Assembly: GCA_001969505.1 (NCBI GenBank)
Contig: LSSK01000734.1
Location: 1-42,194 of the forward strand
DNA: 42,194 bases
Origin: Zancudomyces culisetae
Lineage: Eukaryota > Kickxellomycota > Harpellomycetes > Harpellales > Legeriomycetaceae
Reading direction: 5' to 3'
The translations under genes were made by a program, and so were the position numbers. The notes under the pieces are model-generated. The model searched no databases. It was not told where the DNA came from and saw only the letters and a list, made by a program, of their open reading frames with translations. Of this stretch, positions 5,628 to 37,826 are shown one piece after another (position 1 is the first letter of the stretch; each line of letters opens with the position of its first letter).

Positions 5628-8377
5628 CTAAAGCTTGAATTTTGTAGGCCTGTATTAATTCAGTACATGAAAGAAAAAGTGGTTAATTAGCAAAACAGCG
5701 ATAATAATAGCTAAATAAATCATGTTAAAACTTACAATATCTGAACAAGCCAGTCTGGATCAATCTCGGAAACAAATCTTATAAACGGTTTTGTAGTTTG
5801 AATCGCTATTAAGAAACAAATAAAATTACGGGTGAGGGGGAGTTAATATGGTTTTTCGCGCTCAAAAATATAAACAGATAGATGTATCTAAATCAGATTT
5901 ATACCCATTGCAATAATTACCTTGTGAATACAATACGTATTTGGGAGCAAATTTAAATAGTGCGGATGAAGGATGAATGTGACACACTCTAGACGAATTG
6001 ATATTTTTATAAGAGCCATCAGAAAGCAGTTCAGCAATATTGTTGCAAAAGGTGCGAATTAAAAGCTTCCGAATAACTACCGTCTTGGATATATTTCCGT
6101 GTTGAATGTTGGTTTTTGACAAGGGGTAAAGAGCGGAGACGATGCGGGCTATTTTGTAACGTAAAACATGAACCATGTGTAGCGATGAATAGCTCAGATT
6201 GTTCTTTGAACACCACAACTCGATGTTTGACGAGTTTTTTGAGTATGCGTTGTAATAGGCATCATATATGTTGAGGAATGTTATATGGTCACCCTCAAGC
6301 GCAAGGAACTTGTTTCTAGAGTCCGAAAAATTGTCCAAAAACAGCTCGTTATTCCTCGCAACAAACAGCATCGAACATATTGTGATAATCTCGGGCCCGA
6401 CAAACTCAAGCTCTGAGGAAGGCTGATTATATGCCAGCACGATTAAATTGTTTAGAATAGGATCTAGTGGTAGGGTCACAAGTATTGGGTAAAGATCTAA
6501 CTGGGTAGGAGAGAGTGGGTCTAGGGAAATCAAACCCATTTCGTATAGATTTTGATATACAAAGGCCATTAGTTCTTTGTTTGATATAGGTATACAATCC
6601 ACCAAACTCTTGGTTATGGCTATTGCCGCCAAAACGCTTTTAAATACCCCAACTCTATCCTCTGTGCTGAAATGGTTTGATTCGTTGTCCAGTAGCTGTG
6701 TTGTATACAGTCGGTAGCATTTACCTGTATACTCCTTTTGTCGAGCAAAGCTAGAACGGTGGTCTGCTATTTTCTTTGATATAAAGCCTACCTCCACAAC
6801 CTCGGTATCTGTTTCATAGTGATATTTTCTAGTTTTTTGTAATCCAGTATCAATCACATGTCGAACACCTTCAATCTTTTCTGACAGAGCTGTACTACAC
6901 AGGATAATCTTTCTGGTTTTGTATTTTGATTCTCTGTATACTTTTTGAAGTTCTTCATGCTGAGAACCCGTGCAAAGTTGGTATATTTCGTTTTTGTATC
7001 TAAATTGCGTAAGATTTAATCAGTACGATTACTAGAGCCTTGAAGGAAAAAAAAATTCTTACGATGGTATCATCCATAATATCCAGATAATTGCAAATGT
7101 TGTTTTTATTTGAACTCTTACCTTGAGGGTATGTTTTCCAATTTGAATGCAAGTGTCTCAACATCACTTCTTTCTGGTAGAAATATTAAAACATCTCCAT
7201 CCTCCTACTCAGATACAAATATAGATACCCGGCTTACAGTAGGCTGTATTCGCACAATCAGAAGAAAAAAAGGTTATTCAACTTACATTTCCAATTTTGA
7301 TGACAGTGGATAAGGCCTCTTCTAGATAATCCTTTGTGGGTATGCTTAGATATAATGTATCAATATCTTTGTAGTTTATACTTAAATTTAGAACTCCACA
7401 TCCAAAAAACATATCCAACTCTGAAAAGCCAGCTACGTACTCGACCGAATCAACAAGAAGTATTACTTTTAATAACGGATTTTTGATCTGAATTCTATTT
7501 AGAATACCTAAAGATTATATACTTTGCATCTCTACTATTTAATTAATTGTGAATAGAGCGTACCCTTTCAGCAACCGCAGTAGAATTCCAAGTTCACTAC
7601 ATTGGAAATCAAAATCTTCAATAATTATAATTGAACACTCGTTCACCATATCCATATCCATCATTTCACCCAAAAAGCATTCAGTTGAGTAGAATACAAT
7701 CCTGTTTTTTGTAATCTCAACTGTGTCTTCTACCAGAGTCTTGTGTCCCACTAGCGAGTGACCAAACGCACTACATTCTGTATCTATAGCTTTACTCAAC
7801 GCCTTTATTTTCGTTTTGTTTCCCTATAAGCATAAGATAATCGTTAAGTTTGTATTTTTAGGTGTATGTTAACTATTTAGAGTTAATATTCGATATATCA
7901 GATAAAGACGCACTTTTATTATAGCCATTTTCTCATTTGTAGAATACCGGGTCTCGAAAATACACATTACCAAACCTATGGTTGACAATCCCGAAATTTC
8001 TTGATTAATGCAGTCGTATTATCAAACCACTAGCATTATCTCATTTAATAGCAAAAGAGAATTATTCTAAAAAAAGAGTTAAAAAAAGAAAGAGAAAGAA
8101 AATGAGGGGGGGATTTCGAGTAATGGATTTGTGGTTACATTTTGTAAAATGGCTGCTTTGGTCTCCCTGAATCAGTAGGAGATTGGATTTTTCGATTGCA
8201 TAGTAAATGTTATCTCCTGTAAATAGCAAGTTTAAGGTTAATGGTACTTCAAAAAATATTGTATTATATTAAATTCTTACTTTTTTCCTCGATTGCAGAA
8301 TTTATATCATTCGCCAACTGTTGATTGAAACGAAACCTATCTAAATCGGCTTCAAGGCTTCCGTACTTTTCTTGCAT
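5628..8377 (-). CDS. DEAH-box helicase homologue with all ATPase motifs lost (pseudo-helicase)
   Basis: Nine exons join in frame: 8377-8281, 8216-8139, 7975-7914, 7823-7564, 7494-7287, 7204-7122, 6999-5921, 5805-5736 and 5649-5628, giving 652 residues. The co-linear order of a DEAH/RHA helicase is complete: RecA1, RecA2, winged helix/HA2 and the OB-fold end (HPSSALFKFAPKYVLYS, then TTKPFIRFVSEIDPDWL). Yet each catalytic motif is replaced: I GETGSGKT by GDQSSHFT (50-57), II DEAH by EDFD (148-151), III SAT by VDS (180-182), V TNIAETS by STALSEK (298-304), VI QRAGRAGR by HRSSFARQ (343-350). It should therefore neither bind nor hydrolyse NTP normally. It could be a structural partner in an RNP. 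The closest-looking families are the spliceosomal Prp2/16/22/43 type, but I cannot name the paralogue. The open frames and consistent splice phases argue against a dead pseudogene. The first ATG and the small third exon are the least certain parts. Confidence 0.87.
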
Positions 8378-9896: not shown

Positions 9897-12109
9897 ATGA
9901 TGGATGAACAGCTAATCCAAAAGATTAATAAACTGCAAGATGCTTTTGCTACAGTTGGGCAAAATAACCCGATTGATTTACCGCAAATTGTAGTGATTGG
10001 AAGGTGAGTTTCAAAGACTTGATATTTAGATGTGGTTTTATGGTGTATTGTGCAGGAGTTGTTTGTGTACATATTTCAGCGTTTGGGTGATGGCTGTTAA
10101 CTTAAAATTAACAAATGTACATACATAAATATATCTATTAAAATAGTCAGAGTAGTGGAAAATCCTCGGTACTAGAGAACGTTGTCGGTAAAGATTTTTT
10201 GCCAAGAGGTACAGGTATAGTTACAAGAAGACCATTGGTATTACAGCTGGTCAATATCCCCAGAAAGGAAGAAGGAAACAAGGTACAAGAATGGGGAGAG
10301 TTTCTTCATATGCCAGGCAAAAAGATATATGATTTTGAGGAAATCAGACGCGAGATTGTGCGGGACACCGAGATAAAGACGGGGAAGAATGCGGGAATTT
10401 CACCACTACCAATAAATCTGTGTGTATACTCACCAAATGTGCTTACTTTGACACTTGTGGATTTGCCAGGGCTTACCAAGGTGCCAGTAGGGGACCAACC
10501 TAAGGATATCGAGCGACAAATACGAGAGATGATAATGAAGTATATTACACGACCAAATGCGATTATTCTAGCAGTAACGGCAGCAAATACCGATTTGGCT
10601 AATTCAGATGGGTTGAAATTGGCAAGAGAGGTAGATCCTGAAGGGCTCAGAACAATAGGTGTATTGACAAAGGTAGATCTTATGGACAAAGGAACCGATG
10701 TGATAGACATTCTGGCGGGGCGAGTGATCATGTTGAAGCTTGGATACGTTCCGGTAGTTAATAGGGGACAGAAGGATGTAGAGGCAAATAAAACCATTAA
10801 CGATGCGCTGGAACACGAGCGCAAGTTCTTTGAAATGCATCCGTCATACAGCAACAAGGCACAGTACTGTGGCACACCGTTCTTGGCGAGGAAACTGAAC
10901 ATGATTTTAAACCACCATATCAAGAACACACTACCAGAGATCAAAACCAAGATATCAACAAGTTTGGCAAAGTATGAGAACGAGTTGGAGCAACTGGGTG
11001 TTCCACTGGGTGAGCAACTTGGTGGGATGGCCAACACTATTTTGGCGATTATCACTGAGTTTTGTAACGACTTTTGCCTGGTACTTGATGGACAATCAAA
11101 AGATATTTCCAGCTATGAACTGAGTGGAGGAGCCAGAATAAGTTTTGTATTCCACGAACTGTTTTGCAATGGAATTAAGTCGATTGACCCGCTGTCACAA
11201 GTTAAAGACTCGGATATCCGAACAATTCTGTACAACTCGTCAGGATCAACACCAGCGCTGTTTGTAGCAACAAGCGCGTTTGAAGTTCTAGTCAAGAAGC
11301 AAGTCAGGCGACTAGAGGATCCAAGTCTTAAGTGTGTGAGTCTTGTGTATGAGGAGCTGGTGCGTATATGTACGAGTTTGCTGGCAAGACCATCATTTAA
11401 ACGGTTCCCCCAGTTGAGAGATGCCTTTTACTCTGTTGTGATTTTGTTTTTGAAAGCAGCTATTATTCCAACAAACAAAATCGTATCCGACTTGATAAAT
11501 ATGGAGCAAAACTATATTAACACTGCCCATCCCGACTTTATAAGCGGCCAGCAAGCCCTGAATATTGTTGCCGAACGCAACAGCATGCCGTCCAGCATGG
11601 CCTCACGACTGACTCTTGATGGTGGAAGACCCAGCTCTGGAGGCCAACGGGGTCCCCAGCTTATTGGTAATTCGCCAGCGTCTCAGGACCGTAATGCGGC
11701 CTTGGATGCCGAAATGAATCTCCCCAAGGAAGATGGCATCTTTGGGTCATTTTTCAGCTCCAAGAACAAGCGACCAACCATTATGGACCCACCAACATCT
11801 GTGTTGAAGGCATCAGGGGCACTATCTGAGCGCGAGCAAATGGAAACCGATGTGATCAAACTATTGATTCAATCATACTACAATATTGTGAAGCGCACAA
11901 TCATTGATATGGTGCCCAAGGCAATAATGCTCAAGTTGGTGACCTTTGCGCGCGATGGGCTTCAGAAGGAGCTGTTGAAGGAGTTGTATAACTCCGAAGC
12001 GTTGAATGATTTGTTGAAGGAAAGTGACGCAACTGTCCAGAGAAGGAATGAGTGTAGAAAAATAATAGAGGCGTTGCACAAGGCTGAACAGGTGGTCAAT
12101 TCGGTTTAG
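9897..12109 (+). CDS. VPS1: Vps1-type dynamin-related GTPase
   Basis: Two exons, 9897-10003 and 10147-12109, encode 689 residues (yeast Vps1 has 704). The intron splits the P-loop: exon 1 ends ...IVVIG plus AG, exon 2 restores S then QSSGKSS. G motifs: P-loop GSQSSGKS at 35-42, switch threonines in [14 protein letters not shown] at 141-144 and TKVD at 210-213. The middle/stalk region is followed by a variable Ser/Pro-rich insert ([23 protein letters not shown]) and a carboxy GTPase effector domain. There is no PH or Pro-rich tail, as in Vps1/DRP1 proteins. The family assembles into collars that act in Golgi-to-vacuole sorting, endocytosis and peroxisome fission. Two ATG codons lie in tandem at 9897 and 9900; the first is used here. 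It converges on the secreted-protein gene 188 bases downstream. Confidence 0.96.
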
Positions 12110-14776: not shown

Positions 14777-17700
14777 CTATCGCCTAGAAAATGATTTCTT
14801 TGGAGGAGGACGTCTATTCGAATCGGCAGATGAGTTAGAAACCTTTGCACGTTTATTGGTCGGAGCGAAAAAGTTTCCTCTGGTATGACGCTCATCATAC
14901 TGACGAGCCTTTCGATCCAAAGTATCCCAATCATCACCCTCTTCTTCATCATCATCGTCATCAGGGGTGGATTCGGATTCGTCAGAAGAATAAGCATCAC
15001 CATCGTCGTCGGAATCAGAATAGTCATCAGAGGACTGATCATTATCTTCATCCTCATCAAGTTCGAATTCAGATTCAGAAGGAGAATCATTTTCGTCATC
15101 AGAAAGAGGAGTGTCACCCAGGAAGGACCAGCCACCATCGAGGAAGAAATCGCGAGGAGAGTCGTTGATGGTTTTCATGATTTGAGACCAGTTAAGATTA
15201 ACAGGACCTTCAGAGAAGGGAATGTTTACAGAGTCAAGCCATTCTTTGACATCATCAAGCTGTTCAATAGGAACAGTGTTAACATGAACAGGAGTCTTTT
15301 TGTAGTCTTTAAAGACAATAACAAAATCAAAGTTTTTGAGACCAAACTGGACACGCTCTAAATGAACCAGTTCAATATCGGAAATAGAAACAAGGAAAAA
15401 AGGAGGGTCAGAAAGATGAACAAGACAGTCAACAGTAGGTTGGAGGCGTACACGAGAGCGCAATGGCACACCCATAAATGAAGCATCATAAAAGGGAATA
15501 TCAAGATCAATGAGGTTGTTGGATTGTTCGGCGACAGCTTCAGCAAAGGCCTTGAATAGTTTGTCGAGACGGTCACGGTTAATACGTTCGTCGATTTCGG
15601 CCTGGATTTCATCTTCGTCACCATAGCGAGTAAAACGACGCTTTCGATTACCAGTTTCGTCAAAGGCGGAATCACTGACTTCCTTGCAGAATTGTACATC
15701 GTAAACTTTTTTCTTGCCCAGCATAATGGGGTTTTTGAGATGGAAGTGCAAGAGTACGACTAGTTCGTGTTTGCTGGGCTGGAAAATCATGTGTTTGATA
15801 TTGTTGAACAGCAAATCTACCGAATGTTGGCGTACTGGATGCACATACCGCAGACCATTTTTGTGGATTTCCAGCCCACCAGGAATACGTTTGTTGTCGG
15901 GACCTGGTCGGATAAAGACATCGGCAAGCCGAGTAGGCCGTGTGTTGCGCACTTCAATCAGCTTGTCCTGCTCCACAATATCCGCCATTGTGCTCTTTTC
16001 TTGCTCACGCTTGACCTGGTCCTTTTTCAGAGCATTGATTTCGTTATACAACTCGCTAAACCGCAGAATATCGCTGCTTTTGAATGTCAGTGACCGAATA
16101 AATGACAGCTCTTGCTTGTTGCTGGCCACTGCTGCTCCTGCTCCGGGTGTAATAAAATTCAACCGCAAAAACGTTGTCTCGCCTTCATCCGATTTGCTGA
16201 TGTTCTTCAATGTTCGGATGTTGAATGGCACCGCCACTCCGTTGATTGGTACCAAAATACTCTCGTGCCGCTGGTCAACCATCAGCTGCAGGCGACTGGT
16301 TTGCGCCGGTAGTCCTGTTTCGCGCTTATATGACACAAACTCCTTGTGCTCTGCCGACTGCTTGTTGTCATCGGCTGACCCTGTTGTCCGGAACCGTTCC
16401 TCGCCCCGTCGCTGCAGCTCCTCTTTCAGCTCTGCCTGATGCTTCAACCTCTTGGCAAATTGTGACTCCTCCGCCTCTTCTGCATTTTCCGACCGGAACT
16501 TTGATGTCAAGATCGCATTTTGTCCCTGTCTCTGTCGCTGCTTCTGCTTGTTTGCTTGCTCTTTCTTCTTTTTCGCTTCATCTTCTTCTTGCTCATTAAA
16601 ATAAAAACTTGTTTCGTTCAAGTCTGTCGGACACTTTGTCATCTTCTCTGTCCCCTTCTCACCTATTAACACTGTATCATTTAGTTGCAATCCATAAGTT
16701 TTGTCTCCTTCCTTCAAATTGTTAAATCCAACCATCGAATATATCACCATTCCCGCCTCCAGCTTCTCTTTACACTTTGTATTAATCACAAATGTTCCAT
16801 CTCGGAATTCTATTCCACTCACAAACCCACAGCTCTTGATAAAATTCCCTTCCAAATCCCCTCGTTTTTCCCTTATATACTTTACCAACTTCTCATACAC
16901 TCCACTAAACGTCTCTCCCGCTTTCATTATCCCTAACTTGTACTTTTGAAGCTCTTCCAAAAACTCGTAGTTTTTCTCCTGTGTCTTGCTAGGATCAATC
17001 AAATACGTTCGTCCAACTCCACTGCAATACATGTTATACCGCATTCCTAAACTACACAATATTACTCCGCTTCCTTCCAGCTTCCTATTGTTTGATAACG
17101 CCGATACCGACAAGTTGAATTCCTTTCCGCTCTGGATAATCGGGCTAAAACTCCATTCCACATATTCTCGATCGAGTTTATCTGATAGTTTGATCTTCTT
17201 TGCCACCTTGTTATCAAATACTGCATTTTCCACTTTTTCACTCAGTTCTTCATGAGTAATCTTGGTCTCACTATCTACCAAATCTACCATCGTGTCCACA
17301 AAATATCCATTCATCATTTTGCTGCTACTATCTGATGCCAGCTTGATAAACTCTATCTCGTCACTATCCTTCACACAAAGCGCTCTTCCCAACAGTTGCC
17401 CAACCTCTCGTATCTGTTCTGTTTGTACTTTTTCCGCAAGTATCTTGTTTACCTGATCTGCAAATTTGCCCTCTGCTTTTTCTTTTAACACTCTACCTAC
17501 TATCGTTTTGCCTCCTTTTCCTCCTAGACTCTTTTCCACCATCTCTTTTATCTTACTTCCTATCCCCTCTTCATCTTTTGGTAATGTCACAAGCTCCACC
17601 CCCACAATATTGCTTGCTGCCTTCAATTGCTCCAAGAGTTGTGCTTTTTTCGTACTGGCTGCCATATACACCTTGTCTTGTTCTATTATCAGTAGTGTTC

Positions 17701-17893
17701 TGGGAAACTCATATCCCAACAACCAGTTGTGCATTGCCTTTGTTTTGGTATATGGTTCTTGCTCATTTTGATCTCCCGCCAGCAGCACAATCGCATCTAC
17801 CCTTTCGGCTTCCCCTAGGTCTTGCCATCTTTTTCTCAATTTATTTATTCGTTCGCCAAATTTCTTTGTGTCTATTATAATCTCGTCACTCAT
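14777..17893 (-). CDS. SPT16: FACT complex subunit Spt16 (histone chaperone)
   Basis: Single exon of 1038 residues, close to the family length (about 1035-1047). The amino third is the aminopeptidase-P-like (peptidase M24 fold, non-catalytic) domain, beginning with IDTKKFGERINKLRKRW and including YNMYCSGVGRTYL. A charged coiled linker (EQANKQKQRQRQ) follows, then the dimerisation and paired PH-like middle domain (LIEVRNTRPTRLADVFIRPG, GLRYVHPVRQHSVDLLFNNI). The end is a long Asp/Glu/Ser tail with the conserved DDWDTLDRKARQYDERH block and a basic tip. With Pob3/SSRP1 and an HMG protein it dismantles and rebuilds nucleosomes ahead of and behind RNA polymerase II. The tail binds H2A-H2B. The start ATG is preceded by a pyrimidine-rich spacer. 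No oddities were found. Confidence 0.98.
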   Translation of the reverse strand: MSDEIIIDTKKFGERINKLRKRWQDLGEAERVDAIVLLAGDQNEQEPYTKTKAMHNWLLGYEFPRTLLIIEQDKVYMAASTKKAQLLEQLKAASNIVGVELVTLPKDEEGIGSKIKEMVEKSLGGKGGKTIVGRVLKEKAEGKFADQVNKILAEKVQTEQIREVGQLLGRALCVKDSDEIEFIKLASDSSSKMMNGYFVDTMVDLVDSETKITHEELSEKVENAVFDNKVAKKIKLSDKLDREYVEWSFSPIIQSGKEFNLSVSALSNNRKLEGSGVILCSLGMRYNMYCSGVGRTYLIDPSKTQEKNYEFLEELQKYKLGIMKAGETFSGVYEKLVKYIREKRGDLEGNFIKSCGFVSGIEFRDGTFVINTKCKEKLEAGMVIYSMVGFNNLKEGDKTYGLQLNDTVLIGEKGTEKMTKCPTDLNETSFYFNEQEEDEAKKKKEQANKQKQRQRQGQNAILTSKFRSENAEEAEESQFAKRLKHQAELKEELQRRGEERFRTTGSADDNKQSAEHKEFVSYKRETGLPAQTSRLQLMVDQRHESILVPINGVAVPFNIRTLKNISKSDEGETTFLRLNFITPGAGAAVASNKQELSFIRSLTFKSSDILRFSELYNEINALKKDQVKREQEKSTMADIVEQDKLIEVRNTRPTRLADVFIRPGPDNKRIPGGLEIHKNGLRYVHPVRQHSVDLLFNNIKHMIFQPSKHELVVLLHFHLKNPIMLGKKKVYDVQFCKEVSDSAFDETGNRKRRFTRYGDEDEIQAEIDERINRDRLDKLFKAFAEAVAEQSNNLIDLDIPFYDASFMGVPLRSRVRLQPTVDCLVHLSDPPFFLVSISDIELVHLERVQFGLKNFDFVIVFKDYKKTPVHVNTVPIEQLDDVKEWLDSVNIPFSEGPVNLNWSQIMKTINDSPRDFFLDGGWSFLGDTPLSDDENDSPSESEFELDEDEDNDQSSDDYSDSDDDGDAYSSDESESTPDDDDDEEEGDDWDTLDRKARQYDERHTRGNFFAPTNKRAKVSNSSADSNRRPPPKKSFSRR

Positions 17894-18302
17894 CTTTATC
17901 CGTTCCCTTCAACTATTTACTATAAATTACCTTTCGGATTTCCTACTCTCCCGCTTTTATTTTTTTGTATTTTTTGTATTTTTTTTTTTGTTATTTTTTG
18001 TTAATTTTTTTGTTTTTTTATTTTTATTTTACAATTTAAAAAATTTTTCTATTTAGTAGAACTACTTATGAACAAATGATATACCAGTATTTTATTTATT
18101 TTTTTACTTTTTCCTGAGTACATCAATTTCTATAAAAAATTCTCGCCTATTTCCTCCCCTCCCCCCTCTTACTCCACTCCATTACACTCCACTCCACCCC
18201 ACACACTCACACTCACACTCGCACTCGCCACACTTTCTAAATCCCATTTCCCTCTTCATTTTCATATCAGTATAAAACAAAAATAAACAAATGCTATATA
18301 AC

Positions 18303-21235: not shown

Positions 21236-22992
21236 CTAATTATAAGACATGTATTTAGGAGTTGAAGAAAACTTGGCATAAGACTTGATAACTTTGGTGA
21301 CAGCATCAAGGAAATCCTTTTCAGTTGCAACTTTTCTCCTGGCACGAATGGCAAACATCCCAGCTTCAGTACAGACACTTCTAAGCTCAGCACCAGTTGA
21401 ATTGGGACAAAGACGAGCAATCAAATCGTAACGAATGGAACGATCCACACTCATGGACTTGGCATGAATCTTAAGAATGTGTGCTCGACCCTCGAGGTCA
21501 GGTAGAGAGAATTCGACCCTTCGGTCCAACCGTCCAGGACGCAGAAGAGCAGGATCCAGAGTGTCTGGCCGATTTGTAGCCATCAAAACCTTGATGTTTC
21601 CTCTAGGATCAAACCCATCGAGCTGGTTAATAAGTTCAAGCATAGTTCGCTGTACCTCATTACTGTCTCCAACTCCATCCGAAAGTCTGGCACCACCAAT
21701 TGCGTCGACTTCGTCAAAAAAGATGATACAGGCCTTTTTGGTTCTGGCCATTTCAAACAACTCACGCACCATACGTGCACCTTCTCCCACATACTTTTGA
21801 ACCAATTCAGATCCAATAACACGAATAAATGTCGCATCAGTACGGTTGGCAACCGCACGTGCACATAGCGTCTTTCCTGTTCCAGGTGGTCCATACATCA
21901 ACACTCCCTTGGGTGGGTCAATTCCCAAGTTGACAAACCGCTCGGGCTCCAACAAAGGCAGCTCAACAACTTCTCGAAGCTTCTCGATTTGCTCTTTACA
22001 TCCACCAACGTCTTGGTACGTCACGTCGGGCTTCTCTTCGACCTGCATCATACTGACTGACGGGTCGATTTTTGGTGGTAGCGGAATCTGAATTTGGTAT
22101 TTAGTCCGGTCAACTCCTACTCGCATACCCTCTTCTATATCTGTTGGTGATACTCGTTGGGCCAGTCCTACTACAAATTTCGCCATTTGCCGGATATTGA
22201 TCACATATTTGGCATCATCTCCTTCACCGTATATTTTTGTGCATCTGGCCACCTATTTACATTCCAGTCAGCGTTAGTTTATTATTTTTTTTGCATCGCT
22301 ATCCCTCCCCAAAAATCACAAGACTTACCTGTAAAGCCTGTTCTTCTGATTGTTTCTGTTCATCTGCTGCCAAATCCCAACTGTTTGGAGGCGCCAGTCC
22401 TGTACTTAGCTCCTTCACACCAACCTTCTTGTTGATTTTTTCTTGCAAATCCTTAATAGATTTCTCAACTTCTTTGATTTGCTTGAAATATGGTCCCTCT
22501 CCCTAAACATGCAATATGAATGAAAATTTAAATATCGTGGCTTGCATTCTCCATTGTATTATTTTTCTCTCTAACTGACAAGAAGCACTTACATATGTTT
22601 TTAAAAGTTGAATGTCGCCCTCATCAAGTGCTATAGTTTTAAATGTAAATTGTTTCCGATTGATGTTAGTTGGTCTCATTTACAATGGACTAGCGTAAAT
22701 TGAACTAATTAATTTTGTGAATCCGTCTATATTCTTACCTTTCACTTTGTCATCATCGGCATCATCAAACTTTTTTTCATCTATCAGTATTTTTACACAA
22801 TTTTACGGCACACATGTTATAATTTTAATTTCATGTTAATAAATGGAGCATAATACAAACAATAATGGCTAGGTGCAAAAAAGTAGCCTTGTTGGAATTG
22901 CTTCAGCATCAAAATAGGCTGGCAAATTAGTCTCAAATGCAGTGGAATTGTTGCTGAAACTTACACTTTTCCCAGTTCTCCTTTGGCGGCAT
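21236..22992 (-). CDS. RPT1: 26S proteasome regulatory ATPase Rpt1 (PSMC2)
   Basis: Five exons: 22992-22965, 22780-22739, 22630-22593, 22502-22329 and 22252-21236, giving 432 residues. All introns have GTAAG donors and AG acceptors, and the phases agree. The start [11 protein letters not shown] matches yeast Rpt1 (MPPKEDWEKY) and confirms the tiny first exon. [14 protein letters not shown] and the coiled coil follow, then the OB domain, then the AAA+ module: Walker A GPPGTGKT at 215-222, Walker B FFDEVDA around 274-277, sensor [22 protein letters not shown] and the arginine fingers, ending KYMSYN. Rpt1 is one of six ATPases that unfold substrates and open the 20S gate. Four of five exons are under 180 bases and crowd the 5' end. 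Confidence 0.98.
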
Positions 22993-35738: not shown

Positions 35739-36875
35739 AAATAACTAGTAATATCGGAGGTAGATTTGTATAGAACCTATTTTGTCAATATCATGATGTT
35801 TATAGCTTGTTCTGAATAAACTACAAGTGAGAGGAAAAAAAATTATTGATAGAATTGGGGGGGGTGGGTGGGAGGTATATATGAAGAATGTAGATTGGTA
35901 ATATGATATGTGGGTAAAAAAAATTTGGCAAAAAAACTAAATAAAAAAATAGAGGTGCAATATTGACACCAAAAATCCCTTTTTGTGAAACCTCCAATAG
36001 TTTTATTTTTTTAAAGCAAGTGTACAAAAAATAAAATAAAATAAATAGGTATGAAATACACGAGACTAAAAAAATCAAAATAAAAAAAATCTACAGTATT
36101 TTATAAACATGTATTTGGTTATATTATAATATATTATTATACATCATTTTGTTTTTAACAGTTCACTTGCATTTTTCCGTTCATTTAATATTTTTTCATA
36201 ATCCATTTATTGTCCATTATTCATTACACTCATATTTCTTTTTTTTTTCTTTCTTTTTTTTATTTCAAAAAAAAGGGAGCGCGACTTGTTACTATTATCA
36301 TTGATAAATACATTGTCACTGGTTCAAACTAATAGTATAATAAGCTTATAGGTAGGTTATCTATATTTTTGATTTCAGACTTTTAAACTTATAGGGCAAA
36401 TATAACAGCTATAAGGAGGGAAGAGGTTTGCCATTGTTAAAGGCGAATAAGTTTTATTCATAGCACATACACACGCTATACACACGCATATAATATATTC
36501 CGGTTCCATTAGTAGGGTATAGGTTAGTAAGTTCAAAGACGAAAAGGGAAACTGAGTGGAAATCGAGAATTGTGTCATTGATTAATTTGCTTTTCTCAAG
36601 TAGAAAGCAGCGCTAGAAAGAAAAGGTTGGTGATATTTGCTATCATAATTAGTAGTATTATTATTGTTTTTATTATATAAGGGGATTGGACAAGAGTATT
36701 TTCATATTCTTCCCGGATAATGCAAATTGATAAACAAGAATTTCATGTATTATAACTTTTATTCTATTATTTAAAAAGGATAGAGCAACAAAGTAAATTG
36801 CATAAAGATTTAGGTACGAGTGACGGATAATAGGATAAGGTTGAATAAAGGATAGAAGAGGAAGGGGAGGAGAAA

Positions 36876-37826
36876 ATGTTTAGCAACTTTGAGAGCGAAT
36901 TCAAAGCAGCAGACAAGTGCTTGCATATATATAGCGACAAGAAGTTTCATCCAGATGGGAAGGATCCGTTTAGTAAATGGAGTACTAAGCATCCAAAGTT
37001 TCCATGGCAATTTGGACCATTAGTAAACAAGACAGAGACAGCTGGGTGCGGATCGGTTGAGAAGAAGAAAGTAGAAGTTGATGTTAAAGTAGAAGAGAAA
37101 AAGAAAGTAGAGGTGGGGAAGAAAGTGGAGATAGAAGTGGATGTGAAGAAAAAGGTAGAGGAGAAGAAAACAGTAGAGGTAAAGAAGGAAGAGGTTAAAA
37201 AGGGATGTGGATGTGGAAAGGCAGGATGTGGAGGAGGATGTGGAGGACACCATCATCACCACCATGGCCATCACCACGATCATGATCACCACCACCACCA
37301 TCACGATCACTGCCATTGTAGTGGGAGTTTGTGTTGCAAAGTCGTAGAGGTCCACAAATACTACTACGACAACAAATGCAACTGTAAACCAGCCCCTCCT
37401 CCTCCTCCTCCTCCACCGCCACCACCACCACCACCTCCACCAAAGCCCAAACCAATTGATTCGTGGCAAATCTATCCTTGTTACAAAGTAATAGATGCAT
37501 ACAAAATTGAGGAATCTGAGTGGGTTCCCGAATTCAAAGTCTATCAGAGCGACAAGATGTTCCAAATCCACTGCTTTGTTCCAGGCGCCGACAAGAACAA
37601 GCTGATTGTTGACATTATCTGCCGCAAGGATGTGTGTATTCGCGGTGAGGCCAAGTACCATAGCCATTGTGGATCATGGAAGAATGTACCACATCATTGC
37701 CAATGTACTTTGGTGGTTCCCATGCAGTTTAGATCCGGATTTCCTATTCCACCAAACTGCATTTTAGAAAAAGCTGTTGCGACTTTTGAAGCTGAGGTTT
37801 TGGTTGTTTCTATTCCCAAAAAATAA
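36876..37826 (+). CDS. Alpha-crystallin (HSP20) domain protein with His/Cys-rich and poly-Pro regions
   Basis: Single exon, 316 residues, in distinct blocks. Residues 1-55 are aromatic-rich (KWSTKHPKFPWQFGP). Residues 61-109 are a Lys/Val/Glu repeat built on K-K-V-E-V. Residues 110-123 are Gly/Cys (GCGCGKAGCGGGCGG). Residues 125-147 contain 18 His with Asp and Cys; further Cys pairs run to 170. A poly-Pro run fills about 174-189. Residues about 216-315 are an alpha-crystallin-like fold: WVPEFKVYQSDKMFQIHCFVPGADK, then the VVPMQF strand, IPPNCILEKAVATFEAEVLVVSIPK. The VPGADK and VLVVSIPK ends match the HSP20 family. The domain has extra Cys and His. It may be a metal-buffering or metal-responsive chaperone (inference). 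Confidence 0.85.
   Translation: MFSNFESEFKAADKCLHIYSDKKFHPDGKDPFSKWSTKHPKFPWQFGPLVNKTETAGCGSVEKKKVEVDVKVEEKKKVEVGKKVEIEVDVKKKVEEKKTVEVKKEEVKKGCGCGKAGCGGGCGGHHHHHHGHHHDHDHHHHHHDHCHCSGSLCCKVVEVHKYYYDNKCNCKPAPPPPPPPPPPPPPPPPKPKPIDSWQIYPCYKVIDAYKIEESEWVPEFKVYQSDKMFQIHCFVPGADKNKLIVDIICRKDVCIRGEAKYHSHCGSWKNVPHHCQCTLVVPMQFRSGFPIPPNCILEKAVATFEAEVLVVSIPKK

Follow-up and report, generated by a model that had tools for sequence, protein, structure and literature searches.

A putative DHX35-derived pseudohelicase and a GPATCH1 without its G-patch in the Harpellales fungus Zancudomyces culisetae

The closest described counterpart of the gene analysed here is DHX35, known from S. pombe (Gih35, SPAC20H4.09), human and C. 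thermophilum. It partners one G-patch protein, GPATCH1 (Gpl1), and the two form a module that turns away spliceosomes whose 5' splice sites are poor (PMC11958768; PMC13111387; PMC6619935). In the solved C. thermophilum complex, PRP8-bound GPATCH1 probes the 5' splice site, stands in the way of the U2/branch-site helix and the step-one factors, and provides the anchor for U2-bound DHX35; the brace helix of its G-patch contacts the winged helix of DHX35 and the brace loop contacts RecA2, while residues 360-438, outside the G-patch, wrap the RecA domains (PMC11958768). The protein described here, which we call pDHX35, has, by alignment, the same RecA1-RecA2-winged helix-ratchet-OB layout as these helicases, DHX35-type rows are its nearest in our tree, and a GPATCH1 partner gene is likewise present in the same genome. 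This pair differs from DHX35-GPATCH1/Gpl1 in having neither the ATPase motifs nor the activating G-patch. It is encoded by Zancudomyces culisetae (Harpellales), a gut dweller of insect larvae, and the pDHX35 gene lies in a stretch of 42,194 nucleotides of contig LSSK01000734.1, hereafter the window.

Other helicase-derived proteins have lost their motor. The C-terminal helicase module of Brr2, which is Ski2-like, is an apparently inactive module beside an active one, whereas pDHX35 lacks the motifs in the whole protein. The likeness between the two lies in a spliceosomal helicase module that is apparently catalytically inactive (PMC4267655). Utp25, from the SSU processome, likewise descends from a helicase and is now an RNP component that retains the fold, while its motifs are vestigial (PMC9539457); it is a DEAD-box protein of ribosome assembly in yeast and human, whereas pDHX35 is a DEAH protein of what would be a splicing-checkpoint module. 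Deinococcus radiodurans PriA offers a case of motor loss in one lineage with binding roles kept (PMC4504706; PMC9539457), although it is a bacterial DNA replication-restart factor of a different family. Pseudohelicases are therefore already known (Utp25, PriA), but motor loss with both DHX35-GPATCH1 proteins kept was not found among the papers listed in searches of the openly licensed literature, nor was a dead DHX35, a dead DEAH protein or a Harpellales spliceosome change. The pDHX35 pseudohelicase is so far seen in one species, and the G-patch loss of its partner in three.

The original prediction for this locus was a nine-exon gene whose product keeps a DEAH helicase fold with the catalytic motifs replaced. 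Its coordinates, exon count, length of 652 residues and motif strings all proved correct when we rebuilt the gene from the raw sequence. The gene occupies positions 8377 to 5628 of the minus strand, with 652 codons followed by TAG, zero in-frame stops and eight in-phase GT...AG introns of 64-163 nt. Exon 1 (8281..8377) begins with an in-frame ATG at 8377 and has the donor GTAAGA; exon 2 (8139..8216) carries the position of motif I, exon 3 (7914..7975) brings motifs I and II to the distance seen in intact helicases, and exon 4 (7564..7823) carries the position of motif II. Motif III falls in exon 5 (7287..7494; donor GTAAGT) and the motif IV region, EDGDVLIFLPERSDVE, in exon 6 (7122..7204; donor GTAAGA). 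The long exon 7 (5921..6999), 28-30% identical to the paralogues of the same genome, holds the remaining RecA2, the winged helix, the ratchet and most of the OB fold, which continues in exon 8 (5736..5805; ...TTKPFIRFVSEIDPDWLVQ), and exon 9 (5628..5649) ends in the stop codon TAG. The donors of introns 2-4, which follow exons 2, 3 and 4, are unusual (GTAACC, 7976-8138; GTGCGT, 7824-7913; GTACGC, 7495-7563), so some exon borders could be wrong. We considered an extra exon within the sixth intron, near 7065-7120, and rejected it, as no acceptor was seen and the direct joining of exons 6 and 7 is in phase.

Elsewhere in the window, frames that read open and have Pfam matches correspond to a PPWD1-like cyclophilin with WD repeats (226-1974), a dynamin (10142-12109), the FACT subunit Spt16 (14777-17908) and the proteasome subunit Rpt1/PRS7 (21236-22252). 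For another window gene, distinct from pDHX35, the identity to proteins of Furculomyces and Smittium is 48%. We also observed an open frame at 36849-37826 in which a long proline run comes after an extended stretch rich in His, Asp and Cys; it has no Pfam match at E 1e-5, and its product is possibly metal-binding.

The fold of pDHX35 was recognised along nearly its whole length. In a phmmer search against the PDB, residues 29-651 aligned with chain 9l5s_z (E 4.7e-47), residues 31-651 with human DHX8 (E 5.3e-47) and residues 32-648 with human DHX35 (E 9.2e-46). The first of these chains is labelled just 'RNA helicase', and we take it to be the C. thermophilum DHX35 because GPATCH1 is in the same PDB entry. 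The predicted full-length DEAH alignment was thus borne out, with 29-651 of the 652 residues covered by solved DEAH helicases, and a co-linear arrangement of RecA1, RecA2, winged helix, ratchet and OB fold is present as judged by sequence alignment. Pfam recognised the OB fold (PF07717, 1.3e-18) and neither the HA2 nor the helicase domains.

The enzyme-defining DEAH/RHA motifs (Walker A, the DEAH box, III, V and VI) are absent from pDHX35. At the position of motif I (8143..8166, minus strand, as for all that follow; residues 50-57) the protein reads GDQSSHFT for GETGSGKT, with F at the lysine position; motif II (7608..7619; residues 148-151) is EDFD for DEAH, and motif III (7446..7454; residues 180-182) is VDS for SAT. 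Motif V (6876..6896; residues 298-304) is STALSEK, three residues shorter than the (S/A)TNIAE(T/A)S of intact rows and aligned with a three-residue deletion as STALSE---KI, and motif VI (6738..6761; residues 343-350) is HRSSFARQ for QRAGRAGR. Motifs Ia (IKGNKTKI for TQPRRVAA) and Ib (STECFLGE for TDGMLLRE) are also lost, and motif IV retains some letters (VLIFLPERSDV). Compared with three intact helicases, the spacing is 98 residues between I and II (98-99 in the intact proteins), 32 between II and III (32) and 63 between III and IV (62-80); the IV-V and V-VI distances, 55 (58-67) and 45 (48), are shorter by three or more.

How much of the remaining protein has been held was examined at conserved columns, defined as those at least 90% conserved among 26 other DEAH rows (21 database matches and five paralogues from the same genome). 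Six sequences (P0013, P0015, P0018, P0031, P0032 and the gene C844 of this genome) were omitted from the count as too divergent, and P0025-P0030 and P0033-P0034 were outside the row set from the start. Within the motifs, pDHX35 retains 8 of 46 conserved residues, against 39 of 75 elsewhere (Fisher p 2e-4), so that the active site is gone while the remaining fold is held better. The claim that every motif had been replaced holds in that I, II, III, V and VI are all changed, but not to the last residue, since those eight survive. The same counts are 11/53 and 61/119 at an 80% cut-off and 8/42 and 27/55 at 95%. Under the same scoring, the lowest motif share in any of the 26 other rows is 42/48; the fragment C402 spans five motif columns only and retains all five. 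With approximate domain limits and small numbers, pDHX35 keeps 4 of 14 conserved residues in the winged helix, the docking site of the G-patch brace helix in DHX35 (PMC11958768); the corresponding counts for the ratchet and the OB fold are 9 of 15 and 10 of 14. Its net charge is -8.3, whereas that of six comparators lies between +1.6 and +4.7, as would be expected if RNA binding had weakened.

As a stand-in for dN/dS, we simulated neutral decay by evolving a Prp43 segment of the same genome without selection. At each of five divergence levels, none of 200 simulated genes was stop-free, whereas the real gene is; already at 80% identity to the starting sequence, the simulated genes had on average 7.8 stops. 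This agrees with the contrast between motif and fold retention and upholds the view of a degenerate, probably non-ATPase DEAH protein under constraint. pDHX35 would accordingly qualify as a pseudohelicase, with its motifs lost, its fold kept and its frame apparently constrained, to judge from the simulation.

The family from which it derives is harder to name. A large protein search with pDHX35, which scored the 7,999 candidates with the most shared words, returned 34 significant matches. The best, P0001, is a plant protein with 28% identity over 94% of pDHX35, whose own best PDB relative is human DHX35; the second best, from Pneumocystis, is not DHX35-type, and P0003 carries the name DDX35. 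Identities of up to 38% span less than half of pDHX35. No Harpellales DHX35, intact or degenerate, appears by name among the 34 matches, and none from Smittium or Furculomyces. By PDB bit score, DHX8 and DHX35 tie (163.8 and 164.0), and the S. pombe DHX35, C20H4.09, reaches 138.6 bits, below the Prp22, DHX15, DHX16 and Prp16 chains. In the best tree, a branch of modest support (79/71) separates pDHX35 and seven DHX35-type rows from the rest, and the five rows nearest to it by path are all DHX35-type; P0001 was assigned to this type by its PDB match, P0003 by its name and the other five because they cluster with them. The branch leading to pDHX35 is very long (3.6 changes per column). AU tests reject its being a duplicate of the Prp22 (p 0.0016) or Prp2 (p 0.019) of the same genome. 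They do not reject groupings with Prp43 (p 0.11), Prp16 (p 0.21) or C134 (p 0.097), which fit worse by 5 to 8 log units. Because of the very long branch and the tie in PDB score, the family is not settled by sequence alone; pDHX35 is most likely a DHX35 member, an orthology that is supported and unproven.

A census of DEAH paralogues, proposed as a check along with the original prediction, gave six other DEAH genes in the genome sequence examined (23.1 Mb, 859 contigs), and as far as they were scored these keep their motifs. Five were compared with the PDB. The best solved relative is Prp2/DHX16 for the gene on C8, Prp16 for C521, Prp43/DHX15 for C220 and Prp22/DHX8 for C402, a fragment at a contig end. 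C134 has no clear partner (407 bits with a 'putative pre-mRNA splicing factor' chain, 406 with DHX8 and 367 with human DHX35), and in the tree it groups with a set of fungal rows that we take to be Dhr2-type. The sixth gene, C844, looks by eye like DHX37/Dhr1. There is no DHX35 among these six in the 23.1 Mb examined (five by PDB comparison, C844 by eye). The published Z. culisetae assemblies measure 28.7 Mb (PMC5954228) and 27.8 Mb (PacBio; PMC12611240), and the second study also produced transcriptomic data. The absence of a second DHX35 is provisional because the examined sequence is about 5 Mb smaller than these, and an intact copy could sit in the remainder of the 28.7 Mb genome.

A second gene, that of the cognate partner, lends independent support to a DHX35 identity. 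A DUF1604 search located the GPATCH1 gene on contigs C21 (L037, C21:1435-3537) and C186 (L038), which are identical at 6,999 of the 7,000 bases compared and reflect redundancy in the assembly or else a duplication of very recent date. A four-exon model gives 555 residues (DUF1604, 1.6e-32), and its N- and C-terminal blocks have matches in GPATCH1 from human, S. pombe and C. thermophilum. P0155, the protein annotated in Z. culisetae, covers 85% of the model with full identity over that part, and is without the model's first two exons. No G-patch was detected in Z. culisetae GPATCH1 up to E 10, a level at which the HMMER filters drop most matches. Searching the same genome for the G-patch family found six G-patches elsewhere, so the loss is specific to GPATCH1.

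This loss stands out against the wider family. Our GPATCH1 homologue set consists of 120 matches listed of 430 found, with 7,998 scored. A strict G-patch core is present in 114 of the 120 listed relatives, within 200 residues after the PEDFMD block in 113 of these (P0242 is without that exact block), and three more (P0208, P0222 and P0226) have a core with one substituted position, for a total of 117 recognisable among 120. The GPATCH1 proteins of Zancudomyces, Smittium angustum (P0156) and S. culicis (P0157) have no G-patch core and no GxGxG anywhere, among the 120 listed. As the G-patch is absent in both genera, its loss predates the Zancudomyces/Smittium split or occurred more than once. 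In one genome, both the activating piece of GPATCH1 and the active site of pDHX35 are gone, and no other observation argues more strongly for a DHX35 origin of the window gene. The same result tells against an earlier suggestion that the protein serves as a decoy partner of G-patch proteins, which is unsupported in its simple form since the cognate GPATCH1 is itself without a G-patch.

We consider it probable, from these comparisons of sequence, that pDHX35 descends from DHX35 and that selection has maintained it as a pseudohelicase, a non-catalytic partner for the G-patch-less GPATCH1. An intact helicase misread through wrong exon borders or sequencing errors might be invoked because some donors are non-consensus, and it has hardly any likelihood. 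Motif II lies within exon 4, and motifs V and VI within the 1,079-base exon 7, with none at a border; the motifs are spaced much as in intact helicases, and errors would be needed separately in each of seven motifs without creating a stop. We rejected mis-splicing and sequencing error on the ground that the degenerate motifs lie within open exons. A decaying pseudogene, in which DHX35 function was lost in Harpellales together with the G-patch of GPATCH1 and the frame is an unused relic, would account for both losses at once, as these are what the loss of a whole pathway would leave; it would also fit the unusual donors of introns 2-4 and the lack of an annotated pDHX35 among the matches listed in the large protein search. 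We nevertheless judge it highly improbable: 652 codons are free of stops and frameshifts, the eight GT-AG introns are in phase with the motif spacing nearly kept, fold residues are retained far more often than motif residues, and the other conserved blocks of GPATCH1 are retained. With no simulated neutral gene stop-free even at 80% identity, the decay simulation and the pattern of residue retention led us to reject a simple pseudogene as the main reading.

Two further explanations accept a maintained protein, and both seem unlikely. The gene may be a pseudohelicase of another origin, a duplicate of the Prp43, Prp16, C134 or DHX8 line recruited as a scaffold, with the G-patch of GPATCH1 lost in the wake of DHX35. 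The AU tests leave room for the first three of these lines and the PDB scores for DHX8. Against this, the best tree and its nearest rows by path are DHX35-type and the groupings with Prp22 and Prp2 are rejected; such an origin would also leave the missing G-patch unlinked to the window gene and require a separate loss of DHX35. Alternatively, the protein may derive from DHX35 and now do a wholly different job, away from GPATCH1 and the spliceosome, as the loss of the G-patch that tethers the helicase and the reversed sign of the net charge could be taken to indicate. The genome still encodes a GPATCH1 with its PRP8-facing and C-terminal blocks, however, which suggests that the module persists, and C. 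thermophilum GPATCH1 also grips DHX35 outside the G-patch, through residues 360-438 (PMC11958768).

For a DHX35-derived partner of GPATCH1, we propose the following sequence of events. In the lineage of Z. culisetae, DHX35 would have lost the motifs that serve to bind and hydrolyse ATP, and GPATCH1 would have given up its G-patch, by which the helicase is tethered and activated, while selection would have kept the pDHX35 fold, the PRP8-facing N-terminal domain of GPATCH1 and its C-terminal conserved blocks. The pair may still dock on PRP8 as a non-enzymatic module, in which GPATCH1 would block the entry of both the U2/branch-site helix and step-one factors and pDHX35 would contribute bulk and a binding surface. 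Unwinding would then fall to Prp43 or no longer happen. We infer that pDHX35 is expressed, that it binds GPATCH1 and that its role is steric. A module that docks and blocks without unwinding fits best because the PRP8-facing block is kept, the G-patch is lost, conserved residues are mostly lost in the winged helix and mostly kept in the ratchet and OB fold, and the protein is acidic; the role of RNP scaffold originally suggested for the protein is plausible. More tentatively, and at somewhat less than even likelihood, the DHX35-GPATCH1 proofreading module may be non-catalytic in both halves across Harpellales, docking on PRP8 and vetoing or stabilising spliceosomes by occupancy.

We also looked at the splicing signals themselves. 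Four of the 11 modelled introns (eight in pDHX35 and three in GPATCH1, two genes only) have GT at +5/+6; this would fit relaxed 5' splice-site rejection and is only a lead. In the Z. culisetae genome we found one U6 and one U2 snRNA gene (L045 and L046) with canonical boxes, and changed pairing boxes are not the cause, because these genes carry the usual ACAGAGA and GTAGTA.

The DEAH ATPases of splicing fidelity are explained as RNA-remodelling motors. If the proposed reading is true, pDHX35 represents a natural separation of binding and motor functions in a splicing-fidelity ATPase, and the few pseudohelicases known so far would gain a DEAH-family member. Harpellales would then be a lineage with relaxed 5' splice-site rejection, which predicts that the 5' splice sites used by these fungi are weaker than those used by others. 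The Z. culisetae pair would be a natural experiment on whether blocking by occupancy suffices.
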